Shown here: positions 1-42,299 of the stretch, in pieces
How positions within the stretch are numbered: position 1 is the stretch's first letter
Layout of the letters: each line of letters opens with the position of its first letter
Source of the DNA: a virus
DNA length: 43,049 nucleotides
Direction: 5' to 3' (one strand)
Virus record (IMG/VR): IMGVR_UViG_3300006751_000025
Location: 1 to 43,049 of that record
The notes under the pieces: generated by a model
What the model was told of the DNA's origin: nothing
What the model saw: the letters and a program-made list of their open reading frames with translations, nothing else
Databases searched by the model: none
Translations under genes and position numbers: made by a program

Positions 1-42
1 CTCGTAAGACCGAACGAATCGGTCGACCGCTTGAAGACTCAT
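1..42 (-). CDS. Start of a truncated leftward gene at the window edge
   Basis: An ATG at 42-40 opens a frame (MSLQAVDRFVRSYE) that runs off the left end after 14 codons. I note it because a strong purine-rich Shine-Dalgarno (AAGAGGGGGG) sits six bases upstream. It lies inside, and in a different frame from, the membrane-protein frame that starts at 187. If the window ends are joined directly, this frame stops after ten more codons, but one extra or missing base at the junction would put it in register with the MVEELLTI frame at the right end (42919-43049). No function can be given. Confidence 0.35.
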   Translation of the reverse strand, partial: MSLQAVDRFVRSYE

Positions 43-187
43 GTATTTCCCCCCTCTTAATAAAGATACAGTTGCGCCGGGCTCTCCTTGATAGATACCC
101 ATCAACGAGGTCAGCAATCACGGCAATCACGCTGATCAAAACAGACAGCGCAATGGCAAACCCTAACAGGACAATGAACGTTGGCAC
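1..187 (-). CDS. Small membrane protein, N-terminal part (runs off left edge)
   Basis: A GTG at 187-185 overlaps the TAG stop of the upstream gene (TAGTG), with GAGAGGGA as ribosome-binding site. The product begins with a hydrophobic helix of about 25 residues (FIVLLGFAIALSVLISVIAV), followed by acidic residues and then a basic patch (SRRARR), as expected for a single-pass membrane protein with a basic cytoplasmic side. The frame stays open to base 1. If the ends are joined it continues through base 43049 to the stop at 42919, for about 105 aa in total. The part after residue 50 looks less protein-like, and another well-placed start (ATG at 42) lies inside it in a different frame, so the gene may end differently. 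Function unknown. Confidence 0.4.
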   Translation of the reverse strand, partial: MPTFIVLLGFAIALSVLISVIAVIADLVDGYLSRRARRNCIFIKRGEIHESSSGRPIRSVLR

Positions 188-510
188 TAGTCCCTCTCTT
201 CCAGGCCGGATGCAATGCGCCCAGCCTTCTCAGATACCTGGTCCCAGCTCTGATGCTGGTCCCACCATCCATTATTCTTTGCGAAGTTAGCCCCATCTCT
301 TGCTGCTCGAATGGCCTCGTTAAGCATCAGCTCAATCTGTCTCATCCTGTGTGCAAAGATGTCTAGCTCGCTGTCATACACGTCAACCGTGTGCTCTAGT
401 TCACTAGATGCAATGGCAAGCAGCTCAGCTGCGTCGCAAGCTCTAGCCAACCGGCTTCGCAATCTATTGTAGTTGTCTTTGAATGTGTTTAGCTTGGCAG
501 TTTCAGTCAT
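187..510 (-). CDS. Hypothetical early protein, 107 aa
   Basis: I do not recognise a family. The product is soluble, charged and mostly helical by inspection, with heptad-like stretches around residues 10-75 (YNRLRSRLARA, MRQIELMLNEAI) that suggest a small helical bundle or coiled coil. The C-terminal part carries a WWDQHQSWDQ aromatic cluster. The ATG at 510 is chosen because AAGGAG lies seven bases upstream, inside the ACAACCAAGG element that also precedes neighbouring genes. A GC-rich hairpin (538-561) separates it from the upstream gene. It is translationally coupled to the membrane-protein frame downstream (TAGTG). Confidence 0.7.
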   Translation of the reverse strand: MTETAKLNTFKDNYNRLRSRLARACDAAELLAIASSELEHTVDVYDSELDIFAHRMRQIELMLNEAIRAARDGANFAKNNGWWDQHQSWDQVSEKAGRIASGLEERD

Positions 511-517
511 AGAATCT

Positions 518-527
518 CCTTGGTTGT
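518..527 (-). promoter_or_regulatory. ACAACCAAGG start element (copy 1)
   Basis: The leftward mRNA reads ACAACCAAGG followed by AG, seven bases before the ATG at 510. AAGGAG is the Shine-Dalgarno core; the upstream ACAACC is the part shared with the other early gene starts (999, 1754, 3038, 4332 and, imperfectly, 5282). Confidence 0.6.
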
Positions 528-537
528 AGGCGATTGG

Positions 538-561
538 GCGGGGTTTTTATAGCAGCCCCGC
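538..561 (-). promoter_or_regulatory. Intercistronic hairpin
   Basis: Perfect 6-bp arms GCGGGG (538-543) and CCCCGC (556-561) enclose a 12-nt loop, directly after the stop of the 568-999 gene. In the leftward transcript no U-run follows, so RNA processing or message stability is as likely as termination. Confidence 0.5.
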
Positions 562-567
562 AACTGC

Positions 568-999
568 TTACACTGGCGCACCATCCTCCATCGCCATCGC
601 ACTCTTGTCGTGCTCTCTCAGCTCATCCTCTAATGAGCGAGCTGATTCGGTGAGGAGTTCGAAGATACTCTTTCTGAATTGAACTCGTGTCATTCGAGAT
701 GCATTGGTTGTCATACCCAGGTGCATACGGATGTCTTCAGGTGTGATATATACACGCACCTTCTTGCCATCCTCCCAGAAGTGCAGCCACTCACCATGCA
801 CGCGCTGTAGAATCATGACTCGATTGGTAAACTCATGCAGGTTTACCTTGGTGATTGAGCCCATGCCTATAGCGACGGTGAGAAAGATGAGGCTATGGGT
901 GACGCCCTTCAGCTCACTCTTGTCCTCCTCTCCCTCAACGGGTCGGTAGCACTTCTCTTTGTAGTTGGGTATTTCTGTCAGATTAAACGATAAAGCCAC
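568..999 (-). CDS. Conserved-type phage hypothetical protein, 143 aa
   Basis: The GTG at 999 is preferred over upstream starts because it follows the gene ending at 1002 by two bases and has AAGGAG nine bases upstream within the TCAACCAAGG element. The product starts MALSFNLTEI and contains a hydrophobic stretch (THSLIFLTVAIGMGSITKVN), then FTNRVMILQRVHGEWLHF and VYITPEDIRMHLGMTTNASRMT. This order (short beta start, 'L..LT..IG...IT' helix, R...Q...G, then 'YIT..D...H.G..TNA') matches, from memory, a widespread phage hypothetical family of unknown role. The C-terminus is acidic. It lies in the early block, probably cotranscribed with the gene at 1002-1754. Confidence 0.8.
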   Translation of the reverse strand: MALSFNLTEIPNYKEKCYRPVEGEEDKSELKGVTHSLIFLTVAIGMGSITKVNLHEFTNRVMILQRVHGEWLHFWEDGKKVRVYITPEDIRMHLGMTTNASRMTRVQFRKSIFELLTESARSLEDELREHDKSAMAMEDGAPV

Positions 1000-1001
1000 G
1001 G

Positions 1002-1754
1002 TTACACTCCTTGGTTGATGATATTCAAGCTCATCTGTTTGCGCTTCTGGCCTGTGGCCGGAAACCCTATGAATATATTTCTCCCCTTCTGAGCACAGAG
1101 GGGGGAACCCTTGCCGCAGTCGCAGCACTTTGTGTCTGACCATACAGCCGGACACACTATCCCTCGACGACCACCGGGAGAGACTAATTTCTTCCCGATG
1201 GTGTCATGGGGTACAACAACCACGGCATCTAAGCCACGGTCCATTGCTCTATCCAGCTCAGCCATCGAGTCACATGATACGTTGACCGTAAAGTTCTTGG
1301 TCTCGCTCATCATCTGATCAAAGGCTCGCCGGTTAGCGCGTCTCAATTTGACATCGCCTCGCTTGTGCACACCTGACATTGGCTTATGGGTGTAAGCAAT
1401 TGCTTGCTTACCTGACTCATCAATGGTCTTGGCTAGCTTCCGCAGTCTCTTGCCATCAATGCGGTCACCCTTACCAGGCAGGTCGCCACTCACAAAGCAT
1501 CTGAATATCCGTGAGAAGATTGCGGTAGGCAGCAAGCCAATCAGCTCCGTAAAGCTGTAGCTCTTGTACTTACCTTGGTCGTGCCTGTCTCTGTGGATTC
1601 TCATGTTGCCTTGCTTAGCATGGCACTCACTGCTCTCCAGGTAGGGACAGGTATCAGGACACGTCTTGCTCTCGGACATAAAGTTAGAGATAGGACCTGT
1701 CTTCTTATTGTGAGACAAGGTCGTAACGTGGTAGCGTTCCTCTGTTGTTGTCAT
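1002..1754 (-). CDS. DUF7227-like cysteine-rich phage protein, 250 aa
   Basis: The start is set at the ATG at 1754 (MTTTEERYHV), eight bases after an ACAACCAAGG element; longer frames upstream have no such site. Near the N-terminus is a cysteine cluster of form S-K-T-C-P-x-x-C-P-Y-L...C-H-A. A 'SGDLPGKGDRIDG' segment follows, then AIAYTHKP, NFTVNVSCDSMAELDRAMDRGLDAVVVVPHD, and a C-terminal GIVCPAVWSDTKCCDCGKGSPLC...IFIGFPATGQ. This order of motifs matches phage proteins I know as DUF7227. The two cysteine groups could bind metal or an Fe-S cluster, but the biochemical role is unknown. It lies in the early block immediately upstream of the 568-999 gene. Confidence 0.8.
   Translation of the reverse strand: MTTTEERYHVTTLSHNKKTGPISNFMSESKTCPDTCPYLESSECHAKQGNMRIHRDRHDQGKYKSYSFTELIGLLPTAIFSRIFRCFVSGDLPGKGDRIDGKRLRKLAKTIDESGKQAIAYTHKPMSGVHKRGDVKLRRANRRAFDQMMSETKNFTVNVSCDSMAELDRAMDRGLDAVVVVPHDTIGKKLVSPGGRRGIVCPAVWSDTKCCDCGKGSPLCAQKGRNIFIGFPATGQKRKQMSLNIINQGV
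1009..1018 (-). promoter_or_regulatory. ACAACCAAGG-type start element (copy 2)
   Basis: The variant TCAACCAAGG precedes the GTG at 999 by nine bases. It lies inside the 3' end of the upstream coding region (1002-1754), so here the element is kept even though it overlaps codons. Confidence 0.5.
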
Positions 1755-1762
1755 GGTTAACC

Positions 1763-1772
1763 CCTTGGTTGT
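1763..1772 (-). promoter_or_regulatory. ACAACCAAGG start element (copy 3)
   Basis: A perfect ACAACCAAGG followed by GG lies eight bases before the ATG at 1754. This element decides the start of the DUF7227-like gene. Confidence 0.55.
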
Positions 1773-1794
1773 GGGGCTGGAGTGCCCCCGAGAA

Positions 1795-1814
1795 CCGGCC
1801 TGTTGCCAAGCCGG
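1795..1814 (-). promoter_or_regulatory. Intercistronic hairpin with GCAA loop
   Basis: In the leftward RNA 8-bp arms (1807-1814 with 1795-1802, including one G-U pair) close a GCAA tetraloop of GNRA type (1803-1806). On the other strand the G-U pair becomes an A-C mismatch, so the fold favours the leftward transcript. It sits between the stop at 1823 and the start element at 1763-1772. Confidence 0.5.
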
Positions 1815-1822
1815 AACCGGCG

Positions 1823-2065
1823 TCACTTCATACTGAATGGTTGCTTTGCAGCTCCCTCCACTGAGTCAAACGCTTCAGCTATTACCTGGTTCAACACATG
1901 GTGAATCAGGATGGTAGCCTCAGCTCTGGTTGGGCGAGTCGCAAAGGTAAGTCTCATTACCTCCGCCATCATCACCTCCACTGTTTCCATTGGTGTCAGA
2001 CCGTTCCCCACTGATATGTGGTACAGATCTTCCACCACCTGATGAATATTCTCCTCGCTCATCAT
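1823..2065 (-). CDS. Hypothetical early protein, 80 aa, overlapping the upstream gene
   Basis: The product (MMSEENIHQVVEDLYHIS...) is a compact, mainly helical sequence of normal composition with no recognisable family. It starts at tandem ATGs (2065 and 2062), preceded by GGGGGAA. The first 48 codons (146 bases) lie, in a different frame, inside the 3' end of the gene at 1920-3038, which there encodes only low-complexity Gly/Ser/Asp sequence. That contrast suggests this frame constrains the sequence and the other one tolerates it. The stop precedes a GCAA-capped hairpin. Confidence 0.6.
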   Translation of the reverse strand: MMSEENIHQVVEDLYHISVGNGLTPMETVEVMMAEVMRLTFATRPTRAEATILIHHVLNQVIAEAFDSVEGAAKQPFSMK

Positions 2066-3038
2066 CTTCCCCCGTTTCAAAGCGCATCCCACCAAGCACC
2101 CGCTTAAGCGAGCGCTCAATTTGTCTCATCGCCTCATCGCCCAGCATGTACCGGTCGGGAGAGATCTCCCTATTGGCAGCAATTGCTACCTCCGGAACAC
2201 GACTGATGAGAATGTCAGCTGCCTTGTCGAATCCCAGCTCACCGCAAGCGGTCTCCAGGATGCGCTCATAGTAGCCAGTCCCCTCCTCAGCCTTGACTTT
2301 AGTGTACGTCATGATGGTGGGTAGGTCAGTGCCTTGCCACCAACGCTCAACGCAGTCCGCTTCAGCCTGTGGTAGGCTGGGCAGGATTCGCCTGCACACC
2401 TCAGCAGCTAACCCGCTACGCATATGGATTAGATACTCAGCCAGCTCATCCAGCCGAGTGCAGGTTGAGCCAGCTAGCTGGTCAACACAGCTCAGCATTA
2501 TTGACCTAAGGTCATCATCGGAGTCGCTCAGCTTGCTTAGTTCAACACGCTCAGCAGCCCCGAGATTAGGCAGGATGTTACTAGCTATGTAGCTAGCAAA
2601 CTCACTGTCTCCAACCTCTTGCCAACACAGGTACAGCACCTCATTGCACTCATCATTATCAGCGTTGCTGATGTACTGCCTGACCTCGTCAAGGCCCCAG
2701 TCCTCATGAGTCTTGAGTTCACTCATCACCCTGCGCACGTTGCAGCTGTCCCTGATCATGTCAGCTACTTCCCAGTCTGACATTGAATCAAGGGCCTCCT
2801 TAACGTACTCAGACTTCATATCATCGCACACCTGGGTCTCTAGGATTGTGTCAACATGTCCGTGATCCCGTAGGTGCTCGAAGACATCGTCATAGGTCAG
2901 GTTCTCAAGCGCTGACTTGAGTTGCTCCTCGTGATTAGGATCCCTAATCTCTTGACGCAGCTCTTCAGCGAGCGAGCCAATGGTGTGGCCTTTGGTTTCA
3001 ATCTTCTCTAGGAGTTCATCAATTCTTTCATTGCTCAT
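1920..3038 (-). CDS. Acidic helical hypothetical protein, 372 aa
   Basis: The start is the ATG at 3038 (MSNERIDELLEKIETKG), eight bases after an ACAACCAAGG element; a TTG two codons upstream is less likely. The product is acidic and rich in Glu, Asp and Leu. It is made of short helices throughout (LTYDDVFEHLRDHGHVDTIL, SDWEVADMIRDSC, DEVRQYISNADNDE), resembling an alpha-solenoid without an identified repeat. Scattered cysteines show no metal motif. The last 60 residues are low-complexity (GEDDERGEYSSGGGRS..., GGDDGGGNE) and coincide with the overlapping 80-aa gene. Function unknown; it sits between the DUF932 gene and the DUF7227 gene. Confidence 0.75.
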   Translation of the reverse strand: MSNERIDELLEKIETKGHTIGSLAEELRQEIRDPNHEEQLKSALENLTYDDVFEHLRDHGHVDTILETQVCDDMKSEYVKEALDSMSDWEVADMIRDSCNVRRVMSELKTHEDWGLDEVRQYISNADNDECNEVLYLCWQEVGDSEFASYIASNILPNLGAAERVELSKLSDSDDDLRSIMLSCVDQLAGSTCTRLDELAEYLIHMRSGLAAEVCRRILPSLPQAEADCVERWWQGTDLPTIMTYTKVKAEEGTGYYERILETACGELGFDKAADILISRVPEVAIAANREISPDRYMLGDEAMRQIERSLKRVLGGMRFETGEDDERGEYSSGGGRSVPHISGERSDTNGNSGGDDGGGNETYLCDSPNQS

Positions 3039-3046
3039 GGTCAATC

Positions 3047-3056
3047 CCTTGGTTGT
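3047..3056 (-). promoter_or_regulatory. ACAACCAAGG start element (copy 4)
   Basis: A perfect ACAACCAAGG lies eight bases before the ATG at 3038. The Shine-Dalgarno core here is only AAGGG, weaker than usual, while the ACAACC half is fully kept. Confidence 0.55.
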
Positions 3057-3087
3057 TCAACCGTGTAACTCACACAGTCGCATGGAA

Positions 3088-3111
3088 CCGGGCTCGATTG
3101 CTCAAGCCCGG
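3088..3111 (-). promoter_or_regulatory. Strong intercistronic hairpin with GCAA tetraloop
   Basis: In the leftward RNA a 10-bp stem (3102-3111 with 3088-3097, one G-U pair) closes a GCAA tetraloop. On the opposite strand the wobble becomes a C-A mismatch, pointing to the leftward transcript as the functional one. It lies 15 bases after the stop of the DUF932 gene and has no U-run after it. Confidence 0.6.
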
Positions 3112-3126
3112 CTGCCACTGTTGTAG

Positions 3127-4332
3127 TTAGGCTGCCAGTGATACTAGTTCATGCGCTGCCTTGGCCGCTACTTCTCGGCCAGTACCCATTGCTAGGTTGA
3201 TCATGCGGTTACCCGCACGCTCTTGCTTGTTCGCTGCACCCTTGACTCCGAGGCTGGCCTCGTGTGTCAGCCAGTCAGTGAAGGCGTTGAACCCACCCCA
3301 GCCTGTGCCCTTGACATGCTTCATGTCAGAACCACGACCACGACCACTCCAGTTACTCAGGACGATGTCCTGCTTATTCTTGGCAATCGTGAGGCTGCGT
3401 GATGACTCATCATCCTTCACCTCAGGCAGTGGAATCACCTTGTTCACCACCTCCTTGAACTGAAGGTCGTTGATAGGTGTTGCAGCGAGGGTTCTATAGA
3501 GCTCAAGCTGCTGGTCAGCTTGCAGCATGATTAACCCCATCTGCCTAGTGGCCTGTGCAATGCGCACATCCATGTTGGCAGTGTGGCGAATCTTGTGGCC
3601 TGTCTTGGCGTTCTTCTCGTTTCGGAGAATCATGCCTACGGTATTCGCACATACAGGGCGAATATCCGTGTAACAGACCTGAAAGCTGACCGAGCCGGTA
3701 TGGTCGGTGATGCAGAAGAAGTACCGGTGAATCACATCACCGGGTGCTACCTCTACTTCATCCATACGAAGAGATACGTAGAACTTGGTCCCACGTCTCA
3801 CCGTGCCAGCCGTCTCAACGAATAGCTTGTTGCCTGTTACCGGGTGACGTAGCTGGTCTAGAGTATCCAACACCTTAGTGTTGGGTAGCTCCTTGTAGCT
3901 TGGCTTCACTGCACTCAGTGCAGCTAGCTCCTTGTCACTCCTGTACATAGCGTCAAGCTGACCTCCCATGACGTCTTCAAACGCCGCGCCACCTTCAGTC
4001 ACCGTTGTCTTCAGACCGGCCTCGATTTGGGCTACTGCCCGCTCAATCTCGGTCATCTGTACAGGGCGGTTAAGGTCTTGCAGTGTCTGAACTGCGTCGC
4101 CGATAAGACTCTTCAACCCGCGTGGGTCGATGAGTGGTTCACGTTCAAGCTTGAAGTCAACCGCGTTGCCGCGCTCGTCAATCATGCCCTTTAGTTCACC
4201 TGGGGTGGTTTCCTTCGGAATACCTTGCCCCATCTTATGCCACGGTAGCGTCCCGCCCGCATTCCACATACGGTCGGTTGGTTCATACTCAGCATAGAAC
4301 ATAGCGTCACTGTCATAGATTTCATGTGCCAT
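3127..4332 (-). CDS. DUF932 family phage/plasmid-like protein, 401 aa
   Basis: The overall plan matches DUF932 (the phage/plasmid-like TIGR03299 group). There is an N-terminal segment with a W-H motif (GTLPWHKMGQGIP, about residues 27-39), a central beta-rich core (FYVSLRMDEVEV...YFFCITDHTGSVSFQVCYTDIRPVCANTVGMIL) in which the family's 'R-x-V-C-x-N-T' signature is seen as RPVCANTVG, then KIRHTANMDVRIAQATRQM, and a C-terminal FNAFTDWLTHEAS segment. Family members are common on phages and plasmids; their role is not established. The ATG at 4332 has a perfect AAGGAGGT nine bases upstream, the best ribosome-binding site of the early block, so high expression is likely. Confidence 0.88.
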   Translation of the reverse strand: MAHEIYDSDAMFYAEYEPTDRMWNAGGTLPWHKMGQGIPKETTPGELKGMIDERGNAVDFKLEREPLIDPRGLKSLIGDAVQTLQDLNRPVQMTEIERAVAQIEAGLKTTVTEGGAAFEDVMGGQLDAMYRSDKELAALSAVKPSYKELPNTKVLDTLDQLRHPVTGNKLFVETAGTVRRGTKFYVSLRMDEVEVAPGDVIHRYFFCITDHTGSVSFQVCYTDIRPVCANTVGMILRNEKNAKTGHKIRHTANMDVRIAQATRQMGLIMLQADQQLELYRTLAATPINDLQFKEVVNKVIPLPEVKDDESSRSLTIAKNKQDIVLSNWSGRGRGSDMKHVKGTGWGGFNAFTDWLTHEASLGVKGAANKQERAGNRMINLAMGTGREVAAKAAHELVSLAA

Positions 4333-4341
4333 CTGGCACCT

Positions 4342-4351
4342 CCTTGGTTGT
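4342..4351 (-). promoter_or_regulatory. ACAACCAAGG start element (copy 5)
   Basis: Perfect ACAACCAAGG followed by AGGT before the DUF932 gene. It is the copy with the strongest Shine-Dalgarno core. Confidence 0.55.
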
Positions 4352-4363
4352 GTTACCCAATAG

Positions 4364-4386
4364 CCCGCCCAGCTTGCGCGTGGGGG
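4364..4386 (-). promoter_or_regulatory. Bulged intercistronic hairpin with GCAA loop
   Basis: The leftward RNA from 4386 to 4364 can pair its two ends in 8 bp with two single-C bulges around a GCAA loop (4374-4377). It is weaker than the hairpins at 1795 and 3088 but in the same relative place: after a stop codon and before an ACAACCAAGG element. Confidence 0.35.
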
Positions 4387-4422
4387 AACTGAGCTAGCCT
4401 CATGGCAAGCGGTGGTGTTAGA

Positions 4423-4845
4423 TTAGTATGTGAGACTGACTTGAATGGTGGATTGTCCCATAAGGCCGTGAAACACAGCCGGGACACCGTCGATTGACTC
4501 TTGCAGAATAACCTCAACGCATCGCTGTCGGCCATTCTTCAAGAGCGTGAAGTCTATGAGTTGCCGTAGCTGAAAAGCTGCGGCCTTAGCCTCTACAGGT
4601 ATCGCATCAGACAAGGCTGATGACATTTCGAACAGCTCACACAAGGTGAATACCTGTTGAAGGCTGTAGGGACCTGTAAAGGTTAGGGGCATATACTCAG
4701 ATAGGAATGTAAGCATTAAGCCTGCCCCGATATGACCATCGCTGGCCAAATCACGGCATAGGTCGGCTAACAGCTGAGCACATTCCATATCATCCCTGGT
4801 GATTAACTCACCTAGGTCTAAGCCGGTTATGATTTTCTTAGGCAT
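4423..4845 (-). CDS. Hypothetical early protein, 140 aa
   Basis: The start is the ATG at 4845 (MPKKIITGLDLGELITRDD), with TAGGAG upstream; a longer frame reaching 4974 lacks a site and overlaps the upstream gene. The product is mostly helical (MECAQLLADLCRDLASDG, SYLQ-type turns, LCELFEMSSALSDAIPVEAKAAAFQLRQLIDF) and ends with a beta-like segment (STIQVSLTY). No domain is recognised. Unlike its neighbours it lacks the ACAACCAAGG element. A 12-bp hairpin lies in the gap before it (4913-4940). Confidence 0.7.
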   Translation of the reverse strand: MPKKIITGLDLGELITRDDMECAQLLADLCRDLASDGHIGAGLMLTFLSEYMPLTFTGPYSLQQVFTLCELFEMSSALSDAIPVEAKAAAFQLRQLIDFTLLKNGRQRCVEVILQESIDGVPAVFHGLMGQSTIQVSLTY

Positions 4846-4912
4846 GTAGTGTTCTCCTAACTCCGCTTGCCATGGGGCTAGCCCAGTCGAAACTGAACAG
4901 GCTACCAGGTGG

Positions 4913-4940
4913 CCCCAGGCATCCCTGAGGATACCTGAGG
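4913..4940 (-). promoter_or_regulatory. 12-bp intercistronic hairpin
   Basis: In the leftward RNA 4929-4940 pairs with 4913-4924 over 12 bp (two G-U pairs) around a TCAG loop. On the other strand the wobble pairs become mismatches. It lies 12 bases after the stop of the 4953-5282 gene and has no U-run, so processing or stability is as likely as attenuation. Confidence 0.5.
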
Positions 4941-4952
4941 CCCAACAAAGGT

Positions 4953-5282
4953 CTATCGTCGTTGACGTGTCCAATCACTATGTTCTTCGGTTCTGTGAAC
5001 CCATGCACCCCTGCCGTTGCTAGCTTTGGGCTCCCACACAAACTTGCGGTTCGTGCGGTCATAACCCCAGAGATAACCGTCGGCATTTAAGGTACATTGA
5101 GCATTCACATTCACTCGGATAAGCGCTTGTGCATCGTCTGGACGTATGGTCGCAACCACATGCCCACGTCGGACGATAGAGGAACATTCAGCCGGCTTAG
5201 GTCTCGTAACCTTCGGTTGCACAGAGTACACCGATTGGTTAATGATAGTAGGCCAACTAGAACGGTATCCTTGATTTCCCAT
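4953..5282 (-). CDS. Hypothetical protein, first gene of the leftward early block, 109 aa
   Basis: The ATG at 5282 (MGNQGYRSSWPTIINQ) is preceded by ACTACCAAGGGAG, a variant of the early start element. The N-terminal 45 residues are polar and rich in Pro, Ser and Lys. The rest is beta-like and ends in a basic tail (VHRTEEHSDWTRQRR). A segment GYLWGYDRTNRKFVWEP has the aromatic, repeated look of a small beta-domain, but no family is recognised. As the gene nearest the divergent control region it should be the first expressed from a leftward promoter there. Confidence 0.65.
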   Translation of the reverse strand: MGNQGYRSSWPTIINQSVYSVQPKVTRPKPAECSSIVRRGHVVATIRPDDAQALIRVNVNAQCTLNADGYLWGYDRTNRKFVWEPKASNGRGAWVHRTEEHSDWTRQRR

Positions 5283-5293
5283 GACAAAAACTC

Positions 5294-5303
5294 CCTTGGT
5301 AGT
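5294..5303 (-). promoter_or_regulatory. Imperfect start element (copy 6)
   Basis: ACTACCAAGG, one base off the consensus, lies 11 bases before the ATG at 5282. Confidence 0.4.
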
Positions 5304-5381
5304 TTTCCGGTTAATTCCGGGGCAGGCCGCCGCATATGTTTGGTGCCTACTGACTAGCTGGGGTGCATCCCGCAACCCATT

Positions 5382-5398
5382 AACCGCTAGCGGTTTTT
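5382..5398 (+). terminator. Possible rightward intrinsic terminator
   Basis: AACCGCTAGCGGTT is a complete 14-bp palindrome followed by TTT, giving a short stem and a run of five T on the + strand. It could stop rightward transcription entering the leader of the leftward operon. The stem is short and no rightward gene lies just upstream, so an operator role is an alternative. Confidence 0.35.
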
Positions 5399-5432
5399 AG
5401 AGGCCATCGTAGCCTTTCCAGATGCATCACCC

Positions 5433-5507
5433 ATGGCCCTGCCTACTTACTGGTAGGTCTTAACCGAGGGGTCAAATGCGTCTAGCGCTTTCAACCTGCA
5501 GGGCCAT
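5433..5507 (-). ncRNA. Foldable 75-nt segment, tRNA-like cloverleaf
   Basis: Perfect 10-bp arms (5433-5442 and 5498-5507) enclose three smaller hairpins. On the leftward RNA these are a weak GCG/CGC stem, a 6-bp stem (5475-5470 with 5465-5460, one G-U pair, loop CCTC), and a CTAC/GTAG stem just before the closing arm. The G-U pair is an A-C mismatch on the other strand, so the leftward transcript (leader of the early operon) folds better. Length and arm order resemble a tRNA, but there is no TTC-R-A loop, no 7-nt anticodon loop and no CCA, so it is not a normal tRNA gene. Confidence 0.35.
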
Positions 5508-5568
5508 CAACAACGTCTCCCTACCCTCTAAGCATAACGAATAGTGCAGGGTATGTAACCCCTAAAAG

Positions 5569-5581
5569 GCACATAATGTGC
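5569..5581. promoter_or_regulatory. Perfect palindrome, operator-like
   Basis: GCACAT-A-ATGTGC is a perfect inverted repeat with one central base, between the leftward operon start and the TGAGA array. A regulator binding site is the simplest reading. Confidence 0.4.
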
Positions 5582-5706
5582 GGTTTCTTGGGTTTATGTA
5601 CTTTTGCAGAAACATTGGGTTTTTAGGTGGTATTCGTGGGGTAGACCTTGACAATACGTGCGTTGTGTGTGGGGTGGTAAGGCCTCTATGTAGTAAAATC
5701 CCCAAA

Positions 5707-5769
5707 TGATACACATGTATCACTTTGAGACTCTACTATCTCACAATGAGACACTGTCTCACTTTGAGA
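5707..5769. promoter_or_regulatory. Operator-like array of inverted repeats
   Basis: Five overlapping symmetric sites occur in 63 bp: TGATACA-CA-TGTATCA (5707-5722), TATCACTTTGAGA (5718-5730), TCTCA-CAA-TGAGA (5739-5751), TGAGACA-C-TGTCTCA (5747-5761, perfect) and TCTCA-CTT-TGAGA (5757-5769). Most share TGAGA/TCTCA half-sites with 3-base gaps. This is the pattern expected of a cooperative repressor operator between divergent operons. Candidate binders in the window are the HTH protein at 40815 and the HTH/RHH protein at 42300. Confidence 0.6.
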
Positions 5770-5804
5770 ATGTGACCCTCTGAGCTGGGGAACTGGTAGG
5801 ACCA

Positions 5805-5855
5805 GGGGGGCCGGGGGTACCTGGAGGGACGGGGGCGGCTTGGGTCCCATGGGGG
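5805..5855 (+). other. G-rich tract with a G-quadruplex-type motif
   Basis: Six runs of three or more G occur in 51 bases. The last four (from 5826) have gaps of 2, 6 and 6 bases and so meet the usual G3-N1-7 rule for quadruplex formation. The tract lies on the + strand, downstream of the operator array. Confidence 0.5.
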
Positions 5856-5896
5856 AAATAACACCCCTTTGAACACGATTTCATTTGAAACACTAT

Positions 5897-5916
5897 GAGA
5901 GGAGAGGAGAGGAGAA
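5897..5916 (+). repeat. GAGAG pentamer tandem repeat
   Basis: Three perfect GAGAG units followed by GAGAA. The purine run resembles repeated Shine-Dalgarno cores, but only a 19-codon frame (ATG at 5895) starts there, so I do not call a gene. Confidence 0.6.
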
Positions 5917-6113
5917 CTGTTGTTGTTTCTCTTTGTTGTCCACCAATGATGTAAAGGATTCACCCGTACCACAGGGCTAACAAGAGACTAGAGCCTTGAA
6001 AGCACGTCTGTCAAATCTAATTTATAAGTCCCTGTTATTGCTAGACCCGCAGCAGTCGAATATGCTTGACAGGAATCCTAGATCTACCCCTTTTCTGACC
6101 CATAACCCAGGGG

Positions 6114-6132
6114 TAACGTGAGGCTAACGTTA
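6114..6132 (+). promoter_or_regulatory. RBS hairpin / TAACGT element at first late gene
   Basis: TAACGT (6114-6119) and ACGTTA (6127-6132) form a 6-bp stem around a 7-base loop that contains GAGG, the Shine-Dalgarno of the gene starting at 6132; the A of its ATG is the last base of the stem. As DNA the element is TAACGT-N5-TAACGTTA, and the same 19-bp pattern recurs inside the initiator gene (37901-37919). It could be a translational control hairpin, a protein binding site, or both. Confidence 0.55.
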
Positions 6133-6518
6133 TGAGTGATGGACTGGATAAGTGGCGTAAGTGGCCCTCTGCACCTGAGGAAGAGCGGCCTAAGGCTCTC
6201 TACGTGAATGAGGGTTTGCCTGAGGTGGTGACTGACTGGTTGCGCGAGGAGCGTGGGTGGAAGGTGGTGGATGTCCGGGTGATGCCCAACCGTTCCGATG
6301 GTGACCGGGCTGAGAGTGTGAAGGCTTTTCTGGAGGGGGTACGGTGTGGTTCCATCGAGGCCAGTAAGGATCTCCTGAGATATATAGAGCTTGAAGCGCG
6401 CATCTGTGGTTTGTTGTCGAACAAGCAGCGAGCAGATGATATGGTGCCAAAAGTGGAGGGAGACACTCTTGAGCAGATTCTCGACTTCGGAAAAGGAAAA
6501 CGACAGAAAGCAAGTTGA
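6132..6518 (+). CDS. Putative terminase small subunit, 128 aa
   Basis: This is the first gene of the rightward late block, three genes upstream of the large terminase. The N-terminal half is charged and variable. The C-terminal half contains SKDLLRYIELEARICGLLS (about residues 78-96), of the kind seen near the end of many small terminases ('..RYLELEGRLLGL..'), followed by a linker and a basic tail (FGKGKRQKAS). A DNA-binding helix-turn-helix is not obvious to me, so the call rests on position and this helix. The start is the ATG at 6132, whose RBS is inside a hairpin. The 3' end overlaps the next small gene. Confidence 0.5.
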   Translation: MSDGLDKWRKWPSAPEEERPKALYVNEGLPEVVTDWLREERGWKVVDVRVMPNRSDGDRAESVKAFLEGVRCGSIEASKDLLRYIELEARICGLLSNKQRADDMVPKVEGDTLEQILDFGKGKRQKAS

Positions 6519-6594
6519 GCTTGCTAAGAAGATTTATGACCCTGTGCTTGCCCTGCTCAAGGAGCTGCAAGAACAGAACGAGGAGCAGGACTGA
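6469..6594 (+). CDS. Small coupled protein, 41 aa
   Basis: A TTG at 6469 follows GGAGGG by eight bases and opens a 41-codon frame whose last 30 residues (SEKENDRKQVELAKKIYDPVLALLKELQEQNEEQD region) form a charged amphipathic helix. The stop TGA overlaps the ATG of the next gene (TGATG), which supports real translation. It overlaps the 3' end of the putative small terminase in the +1 frame. A frameshift product joining the two is the alternative, since an A-rich stretch (GGAAAAGGAAAAC) lies at the overlap. Confidence 0.45.
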   Translation: MSRFSTSEKENDRKQVELAKKIYDPVLALLKELQEQNEEQD

Positions 6595-6974
6595 TGGCGG
6601 ATTATGCAAAGCTACACATCAAGGGTTTGGTTTCAAAGAACTCTGACTACTCTGACCCAAGGGTTTCCTTGGCCCCGTCTGCCTACACCCTGACGCCAGA
6701 CGAGTACCTGCACATGGAGCTGAACTGCGACACGGATGGGGAGATCATCAAGACTGATCGCTTCGATGGTGGCGTAACGCTCTGTGTCATTAAGAACAAT
6801 GACTCAGCGATTGTTGTGACCGCCCAGTTTAACACAGCGGCAGACACTGATGTTGACGTGGCTATTCCCGCTGGTGGGATTTTCGTGACTCCTGACTTTG
6901 CCTACGCTGGTGACCTAACACTTACATCAGCAAGCGGTGAGCCTGAGTGTGAAATTCTGATTATCGGCACTTGA
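6594..6974 (+). CDS. Beta-rich hypothetical protein, 126 aa
   Basis: The product (MADYAKLHIKGLVSKNS...) consists mainly of short beta strands (GGVTLCVIKNNDSAIVVTAQFN, TDVDVAIPAGGIFVTPDFAYAGDLTLTS, CEILIIG) with no signal peptide and an acidic composition. Its style resembles small capsid decoration or virion accessory proteins, and similar small beta proteins follow the capsid gene (17193, 17675) and the large internal protein (30618). No family is recognised. It is translationally coupled to both neighbours: its ATG overlaps the upstream stop, and the terminase gene starts one base after its own stop. Confidence 0.6.
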   Translation: MADYAKLHIKGLVSKNSDYSDPRVSLAPSAYTLTPDEYLHMELNCDTDGEIIKTDRFDGGVTLCVIKNNDSAIVVTAQFNTAADTDVDVAIPAGGIFVTPDFAYAGDLTLTSASGEPECEILIIGT

Positions 6975-6975
6975 G

Positions 6976-8856
6976 ATGGATGACCGCGAAGTACTGGCGC
7001 GAGCTGACCAGATACTGCGGATGGCTGACATCAAGCCGGAGCAGCTGACTGTTGATAACTTCTTTGGCTATGCCGAGAAGGTGTCCGACTGCATCCGAGA
7101 TTGGCCTCAGAGGAAGAAAGACGAGACTCCCTGGCTCATGGACTGGGCACAGCGGTTTCGTGGCTTATACGACAATTTCGAGCGAATCGTGGCTGCTGAC
7201 CCGATGATCCTCTACCGGCCAGCTAACCGAGCATCCCAGGAGTTCCACTCATCGAATGCTTTCATCCGCTACTTTCGAGCCGGGAACCGAACATCCAAGA
7301 CTCAGTCCGGTTATGCGGAGCACTACTTCGTCACCACTGAGCAGCACAAGTGGCGATACTTCCCTACAGGGCCACACAGTACATTTATCGTAGGAGTTAA
7401 CTTCTCAAAGTACTGCCCCAGTGTGTTCGAGAAGAAGTTCCTAACGGGGGAGCAAGGGAACCCATTGAGCCCCATGTTTCCTCAAGGGGGGAAATGGCTC
7501 CATCGATACGACGAGCGCAGGCACGAAATTCAGATTGCTTGCCCTAGGTGTGCGAATGCAGGTAAGGCTGCCACCTGTCCCCACACCAAAAGCACTATCA
7601 GACTTTTCTCTGACACAGAGGGCTGGGAAGTGTTGCAGGGCGGGGCGTATATCCTGGGGCACTTTGATGAGCACATCGGTGAGGACTTCTTTAACGAGAG
7701 TATCCAGCGCTTGCAGACTGCGGGGCGCTCTTCGTGCCTTGTCGTAACGGGCACACCCCTTCATGGTCATGATGCTTGGGAGCACCGACGTCTGACAAAG
7801 GTTTTTCTAGAAGGCCCGCCCGCGAACCGAATCAGCCCTGAAGACGCAAACAGTGCGCCGTTTGTTAGCTTGCATGAGATTGACCAGTTCGAAGCTGGTT
7901 TGGTCCCGCACGAGCGGATTCGAATGTCCATGAAGATTATGGATGAGTTCGAGGTGGAGTCCCGTGTCTATGGTCGACCTGCTCCCCTTGCTAAGAATCC
8001 TGTGTTCAACCGGCGGGTGTTGGCTGAGATGCGTAAGGACTCGAAGGACCCTCGGCGTGGAAACCTTCGGGTTGAGAGCGACACCTTGATCACAGAAGTG
8101 GTAGACGCCACCAGGTTCGGGTATCATGAATGTGGCGATGGACCGCTTCGGGTCTGGCAACCTCCCGAACCAGGCCAGCAGTACATCGTTTCCGTTGACA
8201 CCGCTAAGGGATTAGCTGGTGGAGACGCCAGCTGTGCCTCTGTGCTTAAGGTTGCTGGTAGCCAGCTTTCCCCAAGGCTGTCGCTAGTTGCTCAGTGGCA
8301 CGGCTGGATTAACCCCCTCATGTATGCCGAGGAAGTGTTTAAGCTCGCCGTTTGGTACAACAGCGCTCTTGCTGTCATAGAATTGACAGGTGGCTATGGC
8401 GAGGCAGTAATGCTTCGAATGCGGCAGGACTTCTGTTACTGGAACATGTTTCGCGACGAGACGAACCACGCGCAGGCAGAGCACAGCATGGATAGCCGGT
8501 ATGGTGTTGAGACGAACATTAGAACCAAGCCATTCATGGTTGCGGCGCTTCAGCAGTTCGTAAATGACCGTGCGGTTGACATATGGTGCGAGGCAACGAT
8601 TAGCGAGATGGTGGCGTTTGAGCAGGAGCGAACCCAGTCAGGTCTCACCACTCGTTTTCGAGGGGTGGGTGGCTCACATGATGACCGGGTAATGAGCCTT
8701 GTCATCGGAGCTTCCGTGGCGTTATCATCACAGACATTGGACTTCTCTCAGAGAATTGAGCAGCCCGACATCGAAGGGCAGTATGATCAGGAGTGGTTAA
8801 AGATCCACAAGGAGATTCGCAGCGATGCGGAAGTGGACCCCTTTGACTTCAACTAG
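6976..8856 (+). CDS. terL: Terminase large subunit, 626 aa
   Basis: This is the DNA-packaging motor: an ATPase that drives DNA into the procapsid and a nuclease that cuts the concatemer. The N-terminal ATPase shows a Walker A loop AGNRTSKT (about 102-109; Ser replaces the usual Gly of GNRTGKT) and a Walker B YILGHFDE (about 225-232). A CPRC...CPH group (189-203) between them may bind zinc. The C-terminal nuclease begins at SVDTA (D408) with KGLAGGD after it, followed by an AVIELTGGYGEA strand and a terminal SHDDRVMSLVIGASVAL segment carrying the last acidic residues. 626 aa is within the normal range. It starts at the ATG one base after the preceding stop; no clear Shine-Dalgarno, so coupling is likely. 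Confidence 0.93.
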   Translation: MDDREVLARADQILRMADIKPEQLTVDNFFGYAEKVSDCIRDWPQRKKDETPWLMDWAQRFRGLYDNFERIVAADPMILYRPANRASQEFHSSNAFIRYFRAGNRTSKTQSGYAEHYFVTTEQHKWRYFPTGPHSTFIVGVNFSKYCPSVFEKKFLTGEQGNPLSPMFPQGGKWLHRYDERRHEIQIACPRCANAGKAATCPHTKSTIRLFSDTEGWEVLQGGAYILGHFDEHIGEDFFNESIQRLQTAGRSSCLVVTGTPLHGHDAWEHRRLTKVFLEGPPANRISPEDANSAPFVSLHEIDQFEAGLVPHERIRMSMKIMDEFEVESRVYGRPAPLAKNPVFNRRVLAEMRKDSKDPRRGNLRVESDTLITEVVDATRFGYHECGDGPLRVWQPPEPGQQYIVSVDTAKGLAGGDASCASVLKVAGSQLSPRLSLVAQWHGWINPLMYAEEVFKLAVWYNSALAVIELTGGYGEAVMLRMRQDFCYWNMFRDETNHAQAEHSMDSRYGVETNIRTKPFMVAALQQFVNDRAVDIWCEATISEMVAFEQERTQSGLTTRFRGVGGSHDDRVMSLVIGASVALSSQTLDFSQRIEQPDIEGQYDQEWLKIHKEIRSDAEVDPFDFN

Positions 8857-8864
8857 GAGGCGAG

Positions 8865-9194
8865 ATGGAACCGGGACTGATAATTCTGTCGGGCGGAATG
8901 ATGGTGATGACAGCTCTCGCCATGGTCTCCCTATTCAAGACTCAAGGCATTCTGAGGGAGCTACACCGCGATCATGTGGGAATCATAAACAATGCAATGA
9001 TTCACCTCAAGGCTCAGAATGCCCACGAAGCTGCCGAAGCAAAGGCACTCGAAAAAGAAACCGACGTCAGGATTGAGATGCTCAAAGACGCAATGCGTCA
9101 AGAGCAAGAGGCTGTTGAGAAGCTCGACGAGCCCCGGTTTGTTAAGACCGAGGGCGGTAACACGATTGATATGCGAGATTACGAACTGGTCTAG
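8865..9194 (+). CDS. Single-pass membrane protein with coiled coil, 109 aa
   Basis: GGAGG precedes the ATG at 8865. Residues 4-25 (GLIILSGGMMVMTALAMVSLF) form a membrane helix; residues 35-90 are a charged, heptad-rich helix (HEAAEAKALEKETDVRIEMLKDAMRQEQEAVEKL). The layout (N-terminal anchor plus coiled coil) is that of i-spanins, but the gene lies between terminase and the structural genes, far from the endolysin, so a virion or assembly role is equally possible. No family recognised. Confidence 0.6.
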   Translation: MEPGLIILSGGMMVMTALAMVSLFKTQGILRELHRDHVGIINNAMIHLKAQNAHEAAEAKALEKETDVRIEMLKDAMRQEQEAVEKLDEPRFVKTEGGNTIDMRDYELV

Positions 9195-9203
9195 GAGAAG
9201 AAG

Positions 9204-11897: not shown

Positions 11898-11900
11898 GAT

Positions 11901-12224
11901 ATGCCTTACTTGGACTCAATTGGTCAGCCTGCCGGTTATGGCAATAACCCATATGGCAACCTTCAGGTTGAAGACACGTTTGGGGATGTGGTTAACCCTG
12001 TTACTGAGGGGGACTTTATGCCCATGCCGGGCATGGTTGAGCCGACAATGCAGCCGCCACCTGGCCCCCTTGGCGGGGGAGTGGTTCCTGGTATGGTTGA
12101 CCCAGTGCAGGAACGCGAGGAGAAGAAGCAAGTGTCTCGCGTTGAGGCTATGAACCGCATGATAAATTCGATGGTTTTTGCCAACAGAAATGCCGAAGGC
12201 GGCAGGGGTAAGGGAGGCATGTAA
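11901..12224 (+). CDS. Small Pro/Gly-rich protein before the portal, 107 aa
   Basis: The gene starts four bases after the large upstream gene and its stop overlaps the portal start (TAATG). The N-terminal 70 residues are Gly-, Pro-, Asn- and Met-rich (PPPGPLGGGVVPGMVDP); a helical segment EREEKKQVSRVEAMNRMINSMVFANRN and a Gly/Lys tail follow. There is no recognised domain. The composition matches the other low-complexity virion proteins here, and the coupling suggests expression in step with the portal. Confidence 0.65.
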   Translation: MPYLDSIGQPAGYGNNPYGNLQVEDTFGDVVNPVTEGDFMPMPGMVEPTMQPPPGPLGGGVVPGMVDPVQEREEKKQVSRVEAMNRMINSMVFANRNAEGGRGKGGM

Positions 12225-14530: not shown

Positions 14531-14550
14531 GTGCGTTATAAAAACAACTT

Positions 14551-14571
14551 TGGTCCTACTTCCTAGGACCA
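14551..14571 (+). terminator. Hairpin after the portal gene
   Basis: TGGTCCTA (14551-14558) and TAGGACCA (14564-14571) pair perfectly around a 5-base loop, 20 bases after the portal stop. No T-run follows, so it is a terminator only if factors help; mRNA 3'-end protection is an alternative. Confidence 0.45.
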
Positions 14572-14574
14572 GAG

Positions 14575-14610
14575 TCGCAGAAATCGCAGAAACCGCAGGA
14601 TTCGCAGCTC
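14575..14610 (+). repeat. Four-copy 9-bp tandem repeat
   Basis: Units TCGCAGAAA, TCGCAGAAA, CCGCAGGAT and TCGCAGCTC follow each other without gaps, with CGCAG invariant. The 9-bp period is near one helical turn, so iterated protein binding is possible. Confidence 0.6.
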
Positions 14611-14612
14611 TC

Positions 14613-14648
14613 TAGTGAGACAAATACTCTGGAGTATTTGTCTCACTA
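14613..14648. promoter_or_regulatory. Perfect 17-bp inverted repeat
   Basis: Arms 14613-14629 and 14632-14648 are perfectly complementary with a 2-base centre. Each arm contains TGAGACA or TGTCTCA, the same heptamer as the perfect palindrome at 5747-5761 in the divergent control region. There is no T-run after it. It could be a strong RNA hairpin or an operator for the same regulator. Confidence 0.6.
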
Positions 14649-14701
14649 ATCCGTATCCGGCTGTTTACATGGAAACAAAAGTGTTCCACGCGAAACGCTT
14701 G

Positions 14702-14730
14702 TTGACATGAGCTGTCTCCAGTTGTTTAAT
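14702..14730 (+). promoter_or_regulatory. Sigma70-type promoter for the scaffold/capsid genes
   Basis: A perfect -35 TTGACA (14702-14707) is followed after exactly 17 bases by TTTAAT (14725-14730), one base from TATAAT. Transcription should start near 14737, about 85 bases before the scaffold ATG. Confidence 0.65.
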
Positions 14731-14741
14731 TGCATTGCAAT
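14729..14741. promoter_or_regulatory. Palindrome over the promoter start site
   Basis: ATTGCA-T-TGCAAT is a perfect inverted repeat that begins within the -10 box and spans the likely start site, where a bound repressor would block initiation. Confidence 0.4.
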
Positions 14742-14823
14742 CTGTTGACCATCGAGTCGCGACGTAATCGCGTAGGTCATCGGGCGCACTTCGCTTTGCA
14801 GGCGTTACTTGCTGGAGGGATTG

Positions 14824-15843: not shown

Positions 15844-15854
15844 AGGAGCTGACG

Positions 15855-17132: not shown

Positions 17133-17142
17133 TATTCAGACT

Positions 17143-17169
17143 GAGGCGGGGGTCTTTGGCCCCCGTCTT
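17143..17169 (+). terminator. GC-rich hairpin after the capsid gene
   Basis: A 10-bp stem (17143-17152 with 17160-17169, two G-U pairs, five G-C in a row) encloses a 7-base loop, 10 bases after the capsid stop. TTA rather than a T-run follows, so partial termination or 3'-end protection of the capsid message is likely. Confidence 0.5.
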
Positions 17170-17192
17170 AGTTGGTTGGTTGGAGGATTATT

Positions 17193-17663: not shown

Positions 17664-17674
17664 GGAGATAGATT

Positions 17675-17953
17675 ATGGCTACAACAGTTAGTTCAAACGA
17701 GGCAATCTCATCAACGCCCTTCCTTATTCGGAAGATTGAATGCGTAGATGCAAACGGGGATGCAGCGGCTATCACGCATAGTGGTCCGGCGCTTATTCCT
17801 GACATGGTCCTGGCAACAGTGACAAGCACTGGTGACCAGCTTGCCGTTACGGCAAAGACTACGACGACAGTGACTGTGGACGCAGAGGGGGCCTGTACTT
17901 ATGACCTCTACTGTATCTGGTTCTCCCAGGCTACTGGCGGCATTAGCGAATAA
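17675..17953 (+). CDS. Small beta-rich virion protein, 92 aa
   Basis: AAGGAGATAG precedes the ATG. The product (MATTVSSNEAISSTPFLIRKIECVD...) is short, Thr/Ala-rich and beta-like, similar in style to its neighbour at 17193 and the 126-aa proteins at 6594 and 30618. Its stop overlaps the next start (TAATG). A structural accessory role is inferred from position only. Confidence 0.55.
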   Translation: MATTVSSNEAISSTPFLIRKIECVDANGDAAAITHSGPALIPDMVLATVTSTGDQLAVTAKTTTTVTVDAEGACTYDLYCIWFSQATGGISE

Positions 17954-19256: not shown

Positions 19257-19265
19257 GGGATTGAG

Positions 19266-38293: not shown

Positions 38294-38331
38294 TGCTATT
38301 GCCTCGGGGAGGAGAGGCGGACACCCCAAAA

Positions 38332-38363
38332 CCGGGCGGAGAAACACTACCAACTACGCCCGG
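38332..38363 (-). terminator. Hairpin with T-run between SSB and initiator genes
   Basis: In the leftward transcript CCGGGCG (38363-38357) pairs with CGCCCGG (38338-38332) around an 18-base loop and is followed by TTTT. It may attenuate transcription from the SSB gene into the initiator gene. A CCTTGGTTGT (the early start element, inverted) directly precedes it. Confidence 0.45.
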
Positions 38364-38397
38364 ACAACCAAGGGATGGGATGCCCGCCAGATTAATA

Positions 38398-40748: not shown

Positions 40749-40778
40749 GTTTTTCCCCTGGTTGAGAACACTTATCAC

Positions 40779-41039: not shown

Positions 41040-42220
41040 ACCTCGTAATGCCGTGTCTCCTCGGGCTCATCGCCCTCGCCACGCAGCCTGGGCATGAGCC
41101 ACCGGGGCTCACGTCGCCAACGACCCTTGCCACACCAGTAGAAGTTCCAGAAACCACGGACCCAGTGCCGCTGTCTCTTGCTACCTTCGCCTGGCTCAGA
41201 CATGTCGGCCTCAAGGGTGGGTGCTATGTAGTGCAGATGGGTAGCTCGCTTCTTGCTGATCTTAGTGGCCAGCCTCTCCATCTTTGACTGCTTGCCACGG
41301 TCTTCGATGAACCTCCCGGTGAGGGTTTCGATGGCGGCCATGTGCGAGAAGGACTGCTCGTCTCTTGTGATCTCTCGCTTGGGCGAGTTCAGATAGAGCA
41401 TGGTGTTGAGAGCAATGCGCATCATCTTCACCGTGTTCTTTGCGTTCTCCATCTTCATGGACTCAACCGAACGAGGGGGCAGGCCCTCTGGCATATAGCT
41501 CGGGGTGTTGGTCAGCTCCGCCAGTTCACGGAACTTATTCCTATTGTCCTGCTCGCGCATGCGATGCCTGGCTTCCCGCAGAGCGATGCCTCGCTCCTCC
41601 GAAAGGTCAGACCCGTCCTCGTACATATATGGTGCAGTTGTCGCCAAGCTCTCTCTAAGCATGGCATCAAGGGCGCGCTCCGCACTACCCTCACAGCTTA
41701 TCTCATCAAAGCTCATGGCGACGTAAGAGCAAGCGTCATCATCAGGTGCAACCGAATGCTTGTTGGCCTCACCGCAGGCAAAGACAGTAAAGCCGGGGCC
41801 CCTGCCATGGGTTATGATTCGAAAGACATACAGACCCATAACGTCATGGTAGCCCGTGCGCCTCCCGCCCCATATCCGCATCGTGCCTCTCGGCAGGGCG
41901 ATATAGAAACCGTCGTACGGTAGCTTGATATCGTCAGACTGCACGTTCTTCAGGCTGGTGTTGGTGAACATGTCGATCAAGTTCTCACCAAGACTGAATG
42001 ACTGACAGCCAGACTTAATGTAGCTGTGCATCCCCTTGTGAAAGATTGAGCCAATCTCCTCAACCCTCTCACCGGCAAGCGTCATCGACACGTAGCTGTC
42101 AGACCTGTCGATGGCTAGACGAATGTATTCCGCAGCTATGCTGGGGGATGGCCTAAATCCAAAGACCGCATCAGATACATTGTCACGCCAGACTTCAAAA
42201 TGAATACGTGGTTTTTCCAT
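41030..42220 (-). CDS. AcrVA2-like protein, 396 aa
   Basis: The start is the ATG at 42220 (MEKPRIHFEVWRDN), with GAGGAG upstream. The order of features fits the AcrVA2 family as I remember it: a middle DIKLPYDGFYIALP and DVMGLYVFRIITHG, a helical IALNTMLYLNSPKREITRD, and an end segment KRQRHWVRGFWNFYWCGKGRWRREPRWLMP. The end segment matches the 'RRGHW.GYW.G.G....RW.P' of the Cas12a inhibitor. The family is wide, and most members are not tested, so inhibition of CRISPR is not shown. An unrelated role in limiting translation of a host protein is possible. It lies next to the regulator at 40815 and overlaps it by 10 bp. Confidence 0.55.
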   Translation of the reverse strand: MEKPRIHFEVWRDNVSDAVFGFRPSPSIAAEYIRLAIDRSDSYVSMTLAGERVEEIGSIFHKGMHSYIKSGCQSFSLGENLIDMFTNTSLKNVQSDDIKLPYDGFYIALPRGTMRIWGGRRTGYHDVMGLYVFRIITHGRGPGFTVFACGEANKHSVAPDDDACSYVAMSFDEISCEGSAERALDAMLRESLATTAPYMYEDGSDLSEERGIALREARHRMREQDNRNKFRELAELTNTPSYMPEGLPPRSVESMKMENAKNTVKMMRIALNTMLYLNSPKREITRDEQSFSHMAAIETLTGRFIEDRGKQSKMERLATKISKKRATHLHYIAPTLEADMSEPGEGSKRQRHWVRGFWNFYWCGKGRWRREPRWLMPRLRGEGDEPEETRHYEVQE

Positions 42221-42299
42221 AGTGTTTCTCCTCATCAGCTGTGTCGCTGTATATATACAAGAGGGGCAGCCCGACCAGAATCTGGCAAACTTTCTTTCC
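42221..42299. promoter_or_regulatory. Intergenic gap with palindrome, possible leftward promoter
   Basis: CCAGA-A-TCTGG (42275-42285) is a perfect palindrome, followed leftwards by a TATATATA run (42250-42257) that could be a -10 for the AcrVA2-like gene. A -35 at the right distance is not clear. Confidence 0.35.

Follow-up and report, generated by a model that had tools for sequence, protein, structure and literature searches.

A predicted structured RNA in the ssb-rep gap of a phage, complementary to two start motifs of its early genes

Start motifs of the leftward block and their inverted copies

The window analysed here, the whole of virus record IMGVR_UViG_3300006751_000025 (43,049 bases), carries short repeated motifs at the starts of its leftward early genes, and complements of these motifs in a predicted structured RNA in the gap between an ssb-like gene and the replication initiator gene (rep). 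The leftward block extends from 5282 down via the record junction to 36843 and encodes DUF932 and DUF7227 proteins, an exonuclease (exo), a Sak4-like annealing protein (sak4), an ssb-like small protein, so labelled for its position between sak4 and rep and not for a family hit, and the initiator. The middle of the window holds rightward structural genes, including a P22-like portal (12224-14530) and the major head protein (15855-17132). A contig that is 99.9% identical (L001) bridges positions 43049 and 1 with about 22 bases not in the window, so the genome is circular or circularly permuted. Reading frames run across the record boundary (1 / 43049). All gene starts used here are computed.

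The motif that we call type 1, ACAACCAAGG, occurs exactly on the minus strand ahead of four leftward early starts, where its AAGG lies 7-9 nt ahead of the start codon; about 0.08 exact copies of a 10-mer would be expected by chance in 43 kb, both strands counted. The initial annotation had described a repeated element in these four gaps, as well as at the starts at 999 and 5282, and both claims are borne out, the latter two copies each having one mismatch. A seventh, related copy ahead of exo had been overlooked. With up to two mismatches allowed, ACAACCAAGG has 73 matches, compared with 38 ± 6 in shuffles. A second motif, type 2, follows the hairpin of the gap 4846-4952 and recurs at the 42220 start. 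With seven type 1 and two type 2 sites among 17 leftward starts, about half of the early genes are marked; no exact motif copy was found at the rightward starts of the window. The sites are listed with their duplex energies with the two loops of the RNA described below (loop 1 for type 1, loop 2 for type 2).

518..527, minus strand: type 1 ACAACCAAGG before the 510 start; duplex with loop 1, -17.8 kcal/mol
1009..1018, minus strand: type 1 TCAACCAAGG before the 999 GTG start; duplex with loop 1, -16.4 kcal/mol
1763..1772, minus strand: type 1 before the 1754 start (DUF7227); duplex with loop 1, -21.1 kcal/mol
3047..3056, minus strand: type 1 before the 3038 start; duplex with loop 1, -21.7 kcal/mol
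4342..4351, minus strand: type 1 before the 4332 start (DUF932); duplex with loop 1, -19.7 kcal/mol
5294..5303, minus strand: type 1 ACTACCAAGG before the 5282 ATG start; duplex with loop 1, -16.6 kcal/mol
40756..40765, minus strand: type 1 TCAACCAGGG before the exonuclease gene; duplex with loop 1, -19.2 kcal/mol
4846..4857, minus strand: type 2 GGAGAACACTAC before the 4845 start; duplex with loop 2, -16.9 kcal/mol
42220..42231, minus strand: type 2 GGAGAAACACTA, overlapping the 42220 start codon; duplex with loop 2, -19.7 kcal/mol

Since every type 1 copy stands in the normal Shine-Dalgarno position, AAGG is taken as the Shine-Dalgarno sequence and ACAACC as the unusual part. The earlier statement that ACAACC is kept better than the Shine-Dalgarno core is not quite right: CCAAGG is invariant in six of six copies and ACAACC is intact in four of six, with variation 3' of AAGG. 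Pairing of ACAACC with the 3' end of 16S rRNA was rejected, since the 16S complement of CAACC is located on the side of the anti-Shine-Dalgarno that does not permit collinear pairing.

A fifth exact ACAACCAAGG, also overlooked before, lies on the plus strand at 38364-38373, between the leftward ssb-like gene and rep. It is adjoined by GGAGAAACACTACCAACTA (38338-38356), likewise inverted, and the leftward strand of the gap therefore carries the complements of both start motifs. Folded leftward, the gap forms a long outer stem, an unpaired junction strand, CAUCCCUUGGUUGU, that is complementary to ACAACCAAGGG (type 1), and an inner hairpin. The apical loop of this hairpin, UAGUGUUUCUCC, shows complementarity to GGAGAAACACTA (type 2). 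The z score of 38294-38398 is -3.1 leftward and -1.75 rightward. No Rfam family fits the element, with no match at the gathering score, nor up to an E value of 5.

38309..38388, minus strand: predicted anti-motif RNA in the gap between ssb and rep, made up of an outer stem, a junction strand and an inner hairpin; folds in seven phages, and the covariance model matches
38364..38377, minus strand: anti-type-1 strand CATCCCTTGGTTGT, complement of ACAACCAAGGG; exact inverted match that co-varies with the motif in relatives
38338..38356, minus strand: anti-type-2 apical loop TAGTTGGTAGTGTTTCTCC, complement of GGAGAAACACTA; 12-nt exact match to the ribosome-binding site (RBS) of the gene starting at 42220

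Fold, loops and motifs across relatives

The portal has no match in the INPHARED phage collection (50,697 records), and positions 1-20000 have no DNA match among known phages. Relatives were drawn from IMG/VR; one of them, G8 (contigs L023-L025, 46 kb), is syntenic with the window. All seven distinct phages with an available ssb-rep gap, the window and six diverged relatives, have the RNA there, and a covariance model search matches it at the same place in each. In the model-based alignment, 13 of 21 pairs have changed on both sides, giving a score of 0.454 compared with 0.211 when shuffled and at most 0.238 with partners slid; the shuffle controls leave the relatedness of the phages in place. 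All seven folds have standard pairs at the first 11 positions of the outer stem, numbered from its base, and several pair types occur among them. A T-rich run after the outer stem, present in all but the window, suggests an intrinsic terminator.

Strandedness bears on the possibility that a phage or host protein reads the motif in RNA or DNA and that the ssb-rep element is its operator or decoy. Phages do have motifs that recur at many genes and are recognised by proteins, such as the cluster A stoperators (PMC3203893), and the plus strand of the gap bears the motifs themselves. However, the leftward strand folds as well as or better than the rightward one in seven of seven phages (within 0.2 kcal/mol), clearly better in four, and the gap is flanked by two leftward genes. 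Because the two motifs are unrelated, a protein would also require two recognitions, and we consider this explanation improbable.

In G8, L088 and L029 another motif, GGARACGCG, immediately precedes the ATG of the early genes. Thus the ACAACCAAGG cassette of the initial annotation is specific to one lineage, while the relatives share the principle of one start motif throughout the phage and an RNA that matches it. In L090, ACGCGA is retained even though its distance to the ATG shifts by 1 or 2 bases, which makes the motif more than start-codon context. At exo and sak4 the motif is AACCAGGG in G8, L092, L095 and the sak4 of L094, and AACCAAGGG in L088; the type 1 motif at exo is common to the window, G8, L088, L092 and L095.

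The loops of the RNA change with these motifs. The apical loop reads UCGCGUUUMCUCC where genes use GGARACGCGA and UAGUGUUUCUCC in the window, giving the type 2 pairs TCGCGTTTMCTCC with GGARACGCGA and TAGTGTTTCTCC with GGAGAAACACTA, although the short contigs L092 and L094 do not cover the type 2 genes themselves. The junction strand tracks type 1 to a one-base difference, CCCUUGG going with ACCAAGGG in the window and L088, and CCCUGG with ACCAGGG in G8, L092, L094 and L095. L090 has neither an anti-type-1 strand in its RNA nor a type 1 motif at exo and sak4. We regard this joint variation as the strongest evidence that the RNA may pair with the start regions. The loop pattern was found in only six contigs of IMG/VR, each carrying the RNA. 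Two bacterial contigs with the pattern were set aside as chance matches limited to the searched 18 nt, and a wider search with rep for more distant members found none.

This joint variation also counts against another account, in which the motifs are phage-preferred extended RBSs copied among genes and the ssb-rep element is a terminator-like hairpin with chance inverted copies and no effect in trans. The normal position of the Shine-Dalgarno core in every motif and the T-rich run behind the stem in six relatives agree with it. It leaves unexplained, however, why the inverted copies sit in unpaired parts and why loops and motifs change together by lineage, down to the joint absence of type 1 in L090. 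We judge it unlikely, if slightly less so than a protein reader.

A genome-wide duplex scan places the complementarity at gene starts. For window loop 1, 7 of the 12 top sites fall on early-strand starts, compared with a background of 9.5% and with 0-3 for shuffled loops; for loop 2 the counts out of 12 are 8 in G8, 7 in L090 and 6 in L088 (background about 10%). Nine of the 17 leftward window starts are predicted targets, at -16.4 to -21.7 kcal/mol with one loop, and the other eight reach -6 to -14. When type 2 loops are swapped between the window and other phages, most matches are lost. A longest-match count on the computed starts gave weaker contrasts than the duplex scan.

A proposed role in early translation

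The motifs, the conserved covarying fold, the complementarity and the co-change between lineages are computed observations. For the predicted RNA we infer a stable transcript, pairing in cells and a repressive effect. Our preferred explanation, which we think is probably correct, is that the RNA of the ssb-rep gap acts in trans as an antisense RNA that pairs with early RBSs and lowers their translation. A translational control system had been suggested in the initial annotation, and at the sequence level it appears well supported: the motif has its complement in the loops of a predicted RNA that is conserved among these phages and lies at another place in the leftward block.

In the proposed mechanism, the motifs would be target sites within the RBSs of early and replication genes. 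The RNA would be transcribed leftward, like the genes that flank it, and would accumulate as transcription passes exo, sak4 and ssb. Its two anti-motif segments, the junction strand for type 1 and the apical loop for type 2, would be held open and could pair, in competition with the ribosome, with the Shine-Dalgarno regions of about nine genes of the leftward block. Such pairing would cover the Shine-Dalgarno sequence and, at type 2 sites, the initial base of the start codon as well. Translation of the marked genes would then drop while unmarked genes go on, which would provide feedback and timing.

Several observations weigh against this antisense model. Window sak4, ssb and rep are without the motif, and the window copy of the RNA is without the T-run that follows the stem in its relatives. 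Window loop 2 and G8 loop 1 each place only 2 of 12 top sites on early-strand starts, no better than shuffled loops. Moreover, the loops of G8, L092, L094 and L095 are nearly identical, leaving only about four independent lineages.

The position of the targets bears on a possible action in cis, in which the loops would pair with motifs further upstream in their own mRNA and thereby open the terminator-like stem, or would link the translation of exo and sak4 to read-through into rep. In favour of it, exo and sak4 are exactly the genes at which type 1 is shared, they directly precede the RNA, and six phages have a T-run behind the stem. In the window, however, most copies of the motifs are found between 510 and 5282, at the opposite end of the leftward block and many kilobases upstream of the RNA. 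Action in cis therefore seems to us about as doubtful as recognition by a protein.

Hairpins also lie in the early gaps, ahead of several motifs; z scores compare each gap fold with dinucleotide shuffles.

538..561, minus strand: hairpin before the 510 start; z -1.5 (gap 511-567), not beyond chance
1795..1814, minus strand: hairpin CCGGCTTG-GCAA-CAGGCCGG before the 1754 start; z -2.9 (1755-1822)
3082..3118, minus strand: hairpin with GCAA loop before the 3038 start; z -4.65 (3039-3126)
4362..4390, minus strand: weak hairpin with GCAA loop before the 4332 start; z -1.1 (4333-4422), not beyond chance
4911..4942, minus strand: 14-pair hairpin with UCAG loop before the 4845 start; z -2.3; the longest stem (gap 4846-4952), absent from the initial list

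The hairpins first reported in four gaps are all present, three of the four with a GCAA loop as described, but their strength is uneven and only two beat shuffles. Their sequence differs from gap to gap. No U-run lies behind them, so they are not obvious terminators; a search for intrinsic terminators gave five terminator-like sites in 1-6200, the level of shuffles, and none at the hairpins. A promoter search gave none above chance. We conjecture that the hairpins may shield upstream mRNA or present the motif.

The initial annotation had compared these cassettes to the RNase III sites between T7 early genes, which likewise place hairpins between early genes. Compared from sequence alone, the window differs in its added extended RBS motif and in having two of four hairpins not beyond chance. 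Processing cassettes of RNase III type would fit the placement of the hairpins in the long early gaps, after one gene's stop and ahead of the next start. Of the four hairpins, two are clearly non-random, and the long gaps of G8 also fold well (z -2.3 to -3.0). Given that the other two hairpins are no better than shuffles and that the motif is also present without a gap at the 999 start, processing is very improbable as the explanation.

In G8 (L024, minus strand), two long early gaps, 2527-2616 and 2056-2177, each have a similar second hairpin (ACATCA...TGGTGT) before an ACGCG/ATGCG start motif (z -2.6 and -3.0). Stretches of the divergent control region between leftward and rightward genes are well kept (79-86%) between the window (5799-5891, 6008-6043) and G8 (L024, 4294-4386), whereas the neighbouring DNA is not.

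Comparison with Start-Associated Sequences and regulatory RNAs

Start-Associated Sequences (SAS/ESAS) have been described in mycobacteriophages of cluster K (PMC3203893) and in Microbacterium phages of cluster EF (PMC7302621). Like them, the window has a short asymmetric motif with a Shine-Dalgarno sequence at many non-structural genes, often in gaps of more than 50 nt and with inverted repeats ahead, together with a copy in opposite orientation, which is single in K1 phages. Its motifs are ACAACCAAGG and GGAGAAACACTA, however, not the cluster K consensus GGGATAGGAGCCC, which is constant in five K phages, and in place of the conserved 17-bp inverted-repeat sequence (ESAS) upstream of SAS it has hairpins that vary by gap. 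Several cluster EF SAS copies of AnnaSerena (L152; 15700, 16667 and 29172) directly follow hairpin-like inverted repeats whose sequences differ, and in this they resemble the window cassettes.

The 2011 paper found little support for RNA hairpins in ESAS and reported that four K1 phages have a single SAS in reverse orientation that does not stand at a gene start (PMC3203893). In Anaya this copy forms the loop of a hairpin (CGCGCG-GCCUCCUAUCCC-CGCGC, near 59840-59900) within a noncoding gap, and the loop is complementary to SAS with one mismatch. Ganymede and Niklas carry an identical loop and Amelie an almost identical one, while in Hammy, DarthP and Shandong1 it is imperfect. It was not seen in Keshu, MacnCheese or Yuna, of which Keshu and Yuna have SAS as numerous, and no inverted SAS copy was found in the stretch of AnnaSerena that was read. 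A general anti-SAS RNA in cluster K was rejected, as it fails beyond K1-type phages. In the window and its relatives, by contrast, the inverted copy lies within a structured RNA, is kept in seven of seven phages and changes with the motif. The parallel with SAS phages is thus suggestive for K1 only, and we claim no generality.

The noncoding gap of Anaya (JF704106) that holds this loop spans 385 nt at 59682-60066 (L142:34683-35067) and has matches in 177 mycobacteriophage records. It may be a structured RNA, since it folds very strongly, with about -200 kcal/mol in each of ten phages. At 36729-36789 (L142:11730-11790), one Anaya SAS lies behind a GCCCCGC-ACTAG-GCGGGGC hairpin and ACACAACCAAGGGATAGGAG, which contains the window's ACAACCAAGGGAT, probably by chance.

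SAS were described in 2011 in a paper that leaves open whether host or phage RNA or protein is the binding partner (PMC3203893), and a 2025 survey still calls for experimental proof of their role (PMC12699233). The phages studied here offer a candidate partner for start motifs, a predicted RNA with loops that change alongside the motifs, and this co-change opens the question to tests in which loops and targets are swapped. A broader and more tentative proposal is that two RBS barcodes for a whole gene class, and one structured RNA reading both, form a self-contained, lineage-specific switch of early translation; the same logic, separately arisen in K1 mycobacteriophages, might explain part of the SAS. 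If true, one phage RNA would address many of its own genes, and the relatives would supply natural matched RBS/antisense pairs of differing specificity.

Phages P1 and P7 encode an antisense RNA, C4, that is complementary to RBSs, and the loops of the window RNA are likewise complementary to RBSs of phage genes. To our knowledge, the targets of Staphylococcus aureus RNAIII carry no dedicated repeated motif. C4 constitutes Rfam family RF01695 (PMC2864571), to whose covariance model the window RNA has no match, and it acts on one operon, whereas the predicted window RNA would address about nine dispersed starts in two motif classes. RNAIII is one RNA with C-rich loops that pair with the Shine-Dalgarno regions of several mRNAs (PMC2837412), all features that the window RNA would share, although RNAIII is bacterial, about 500 nt long and without sequence relation to it. 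We see C4 of P1/P7 as the nearest phage RNA in mechanism and S. aureus RNAIII as the nearest in logic.

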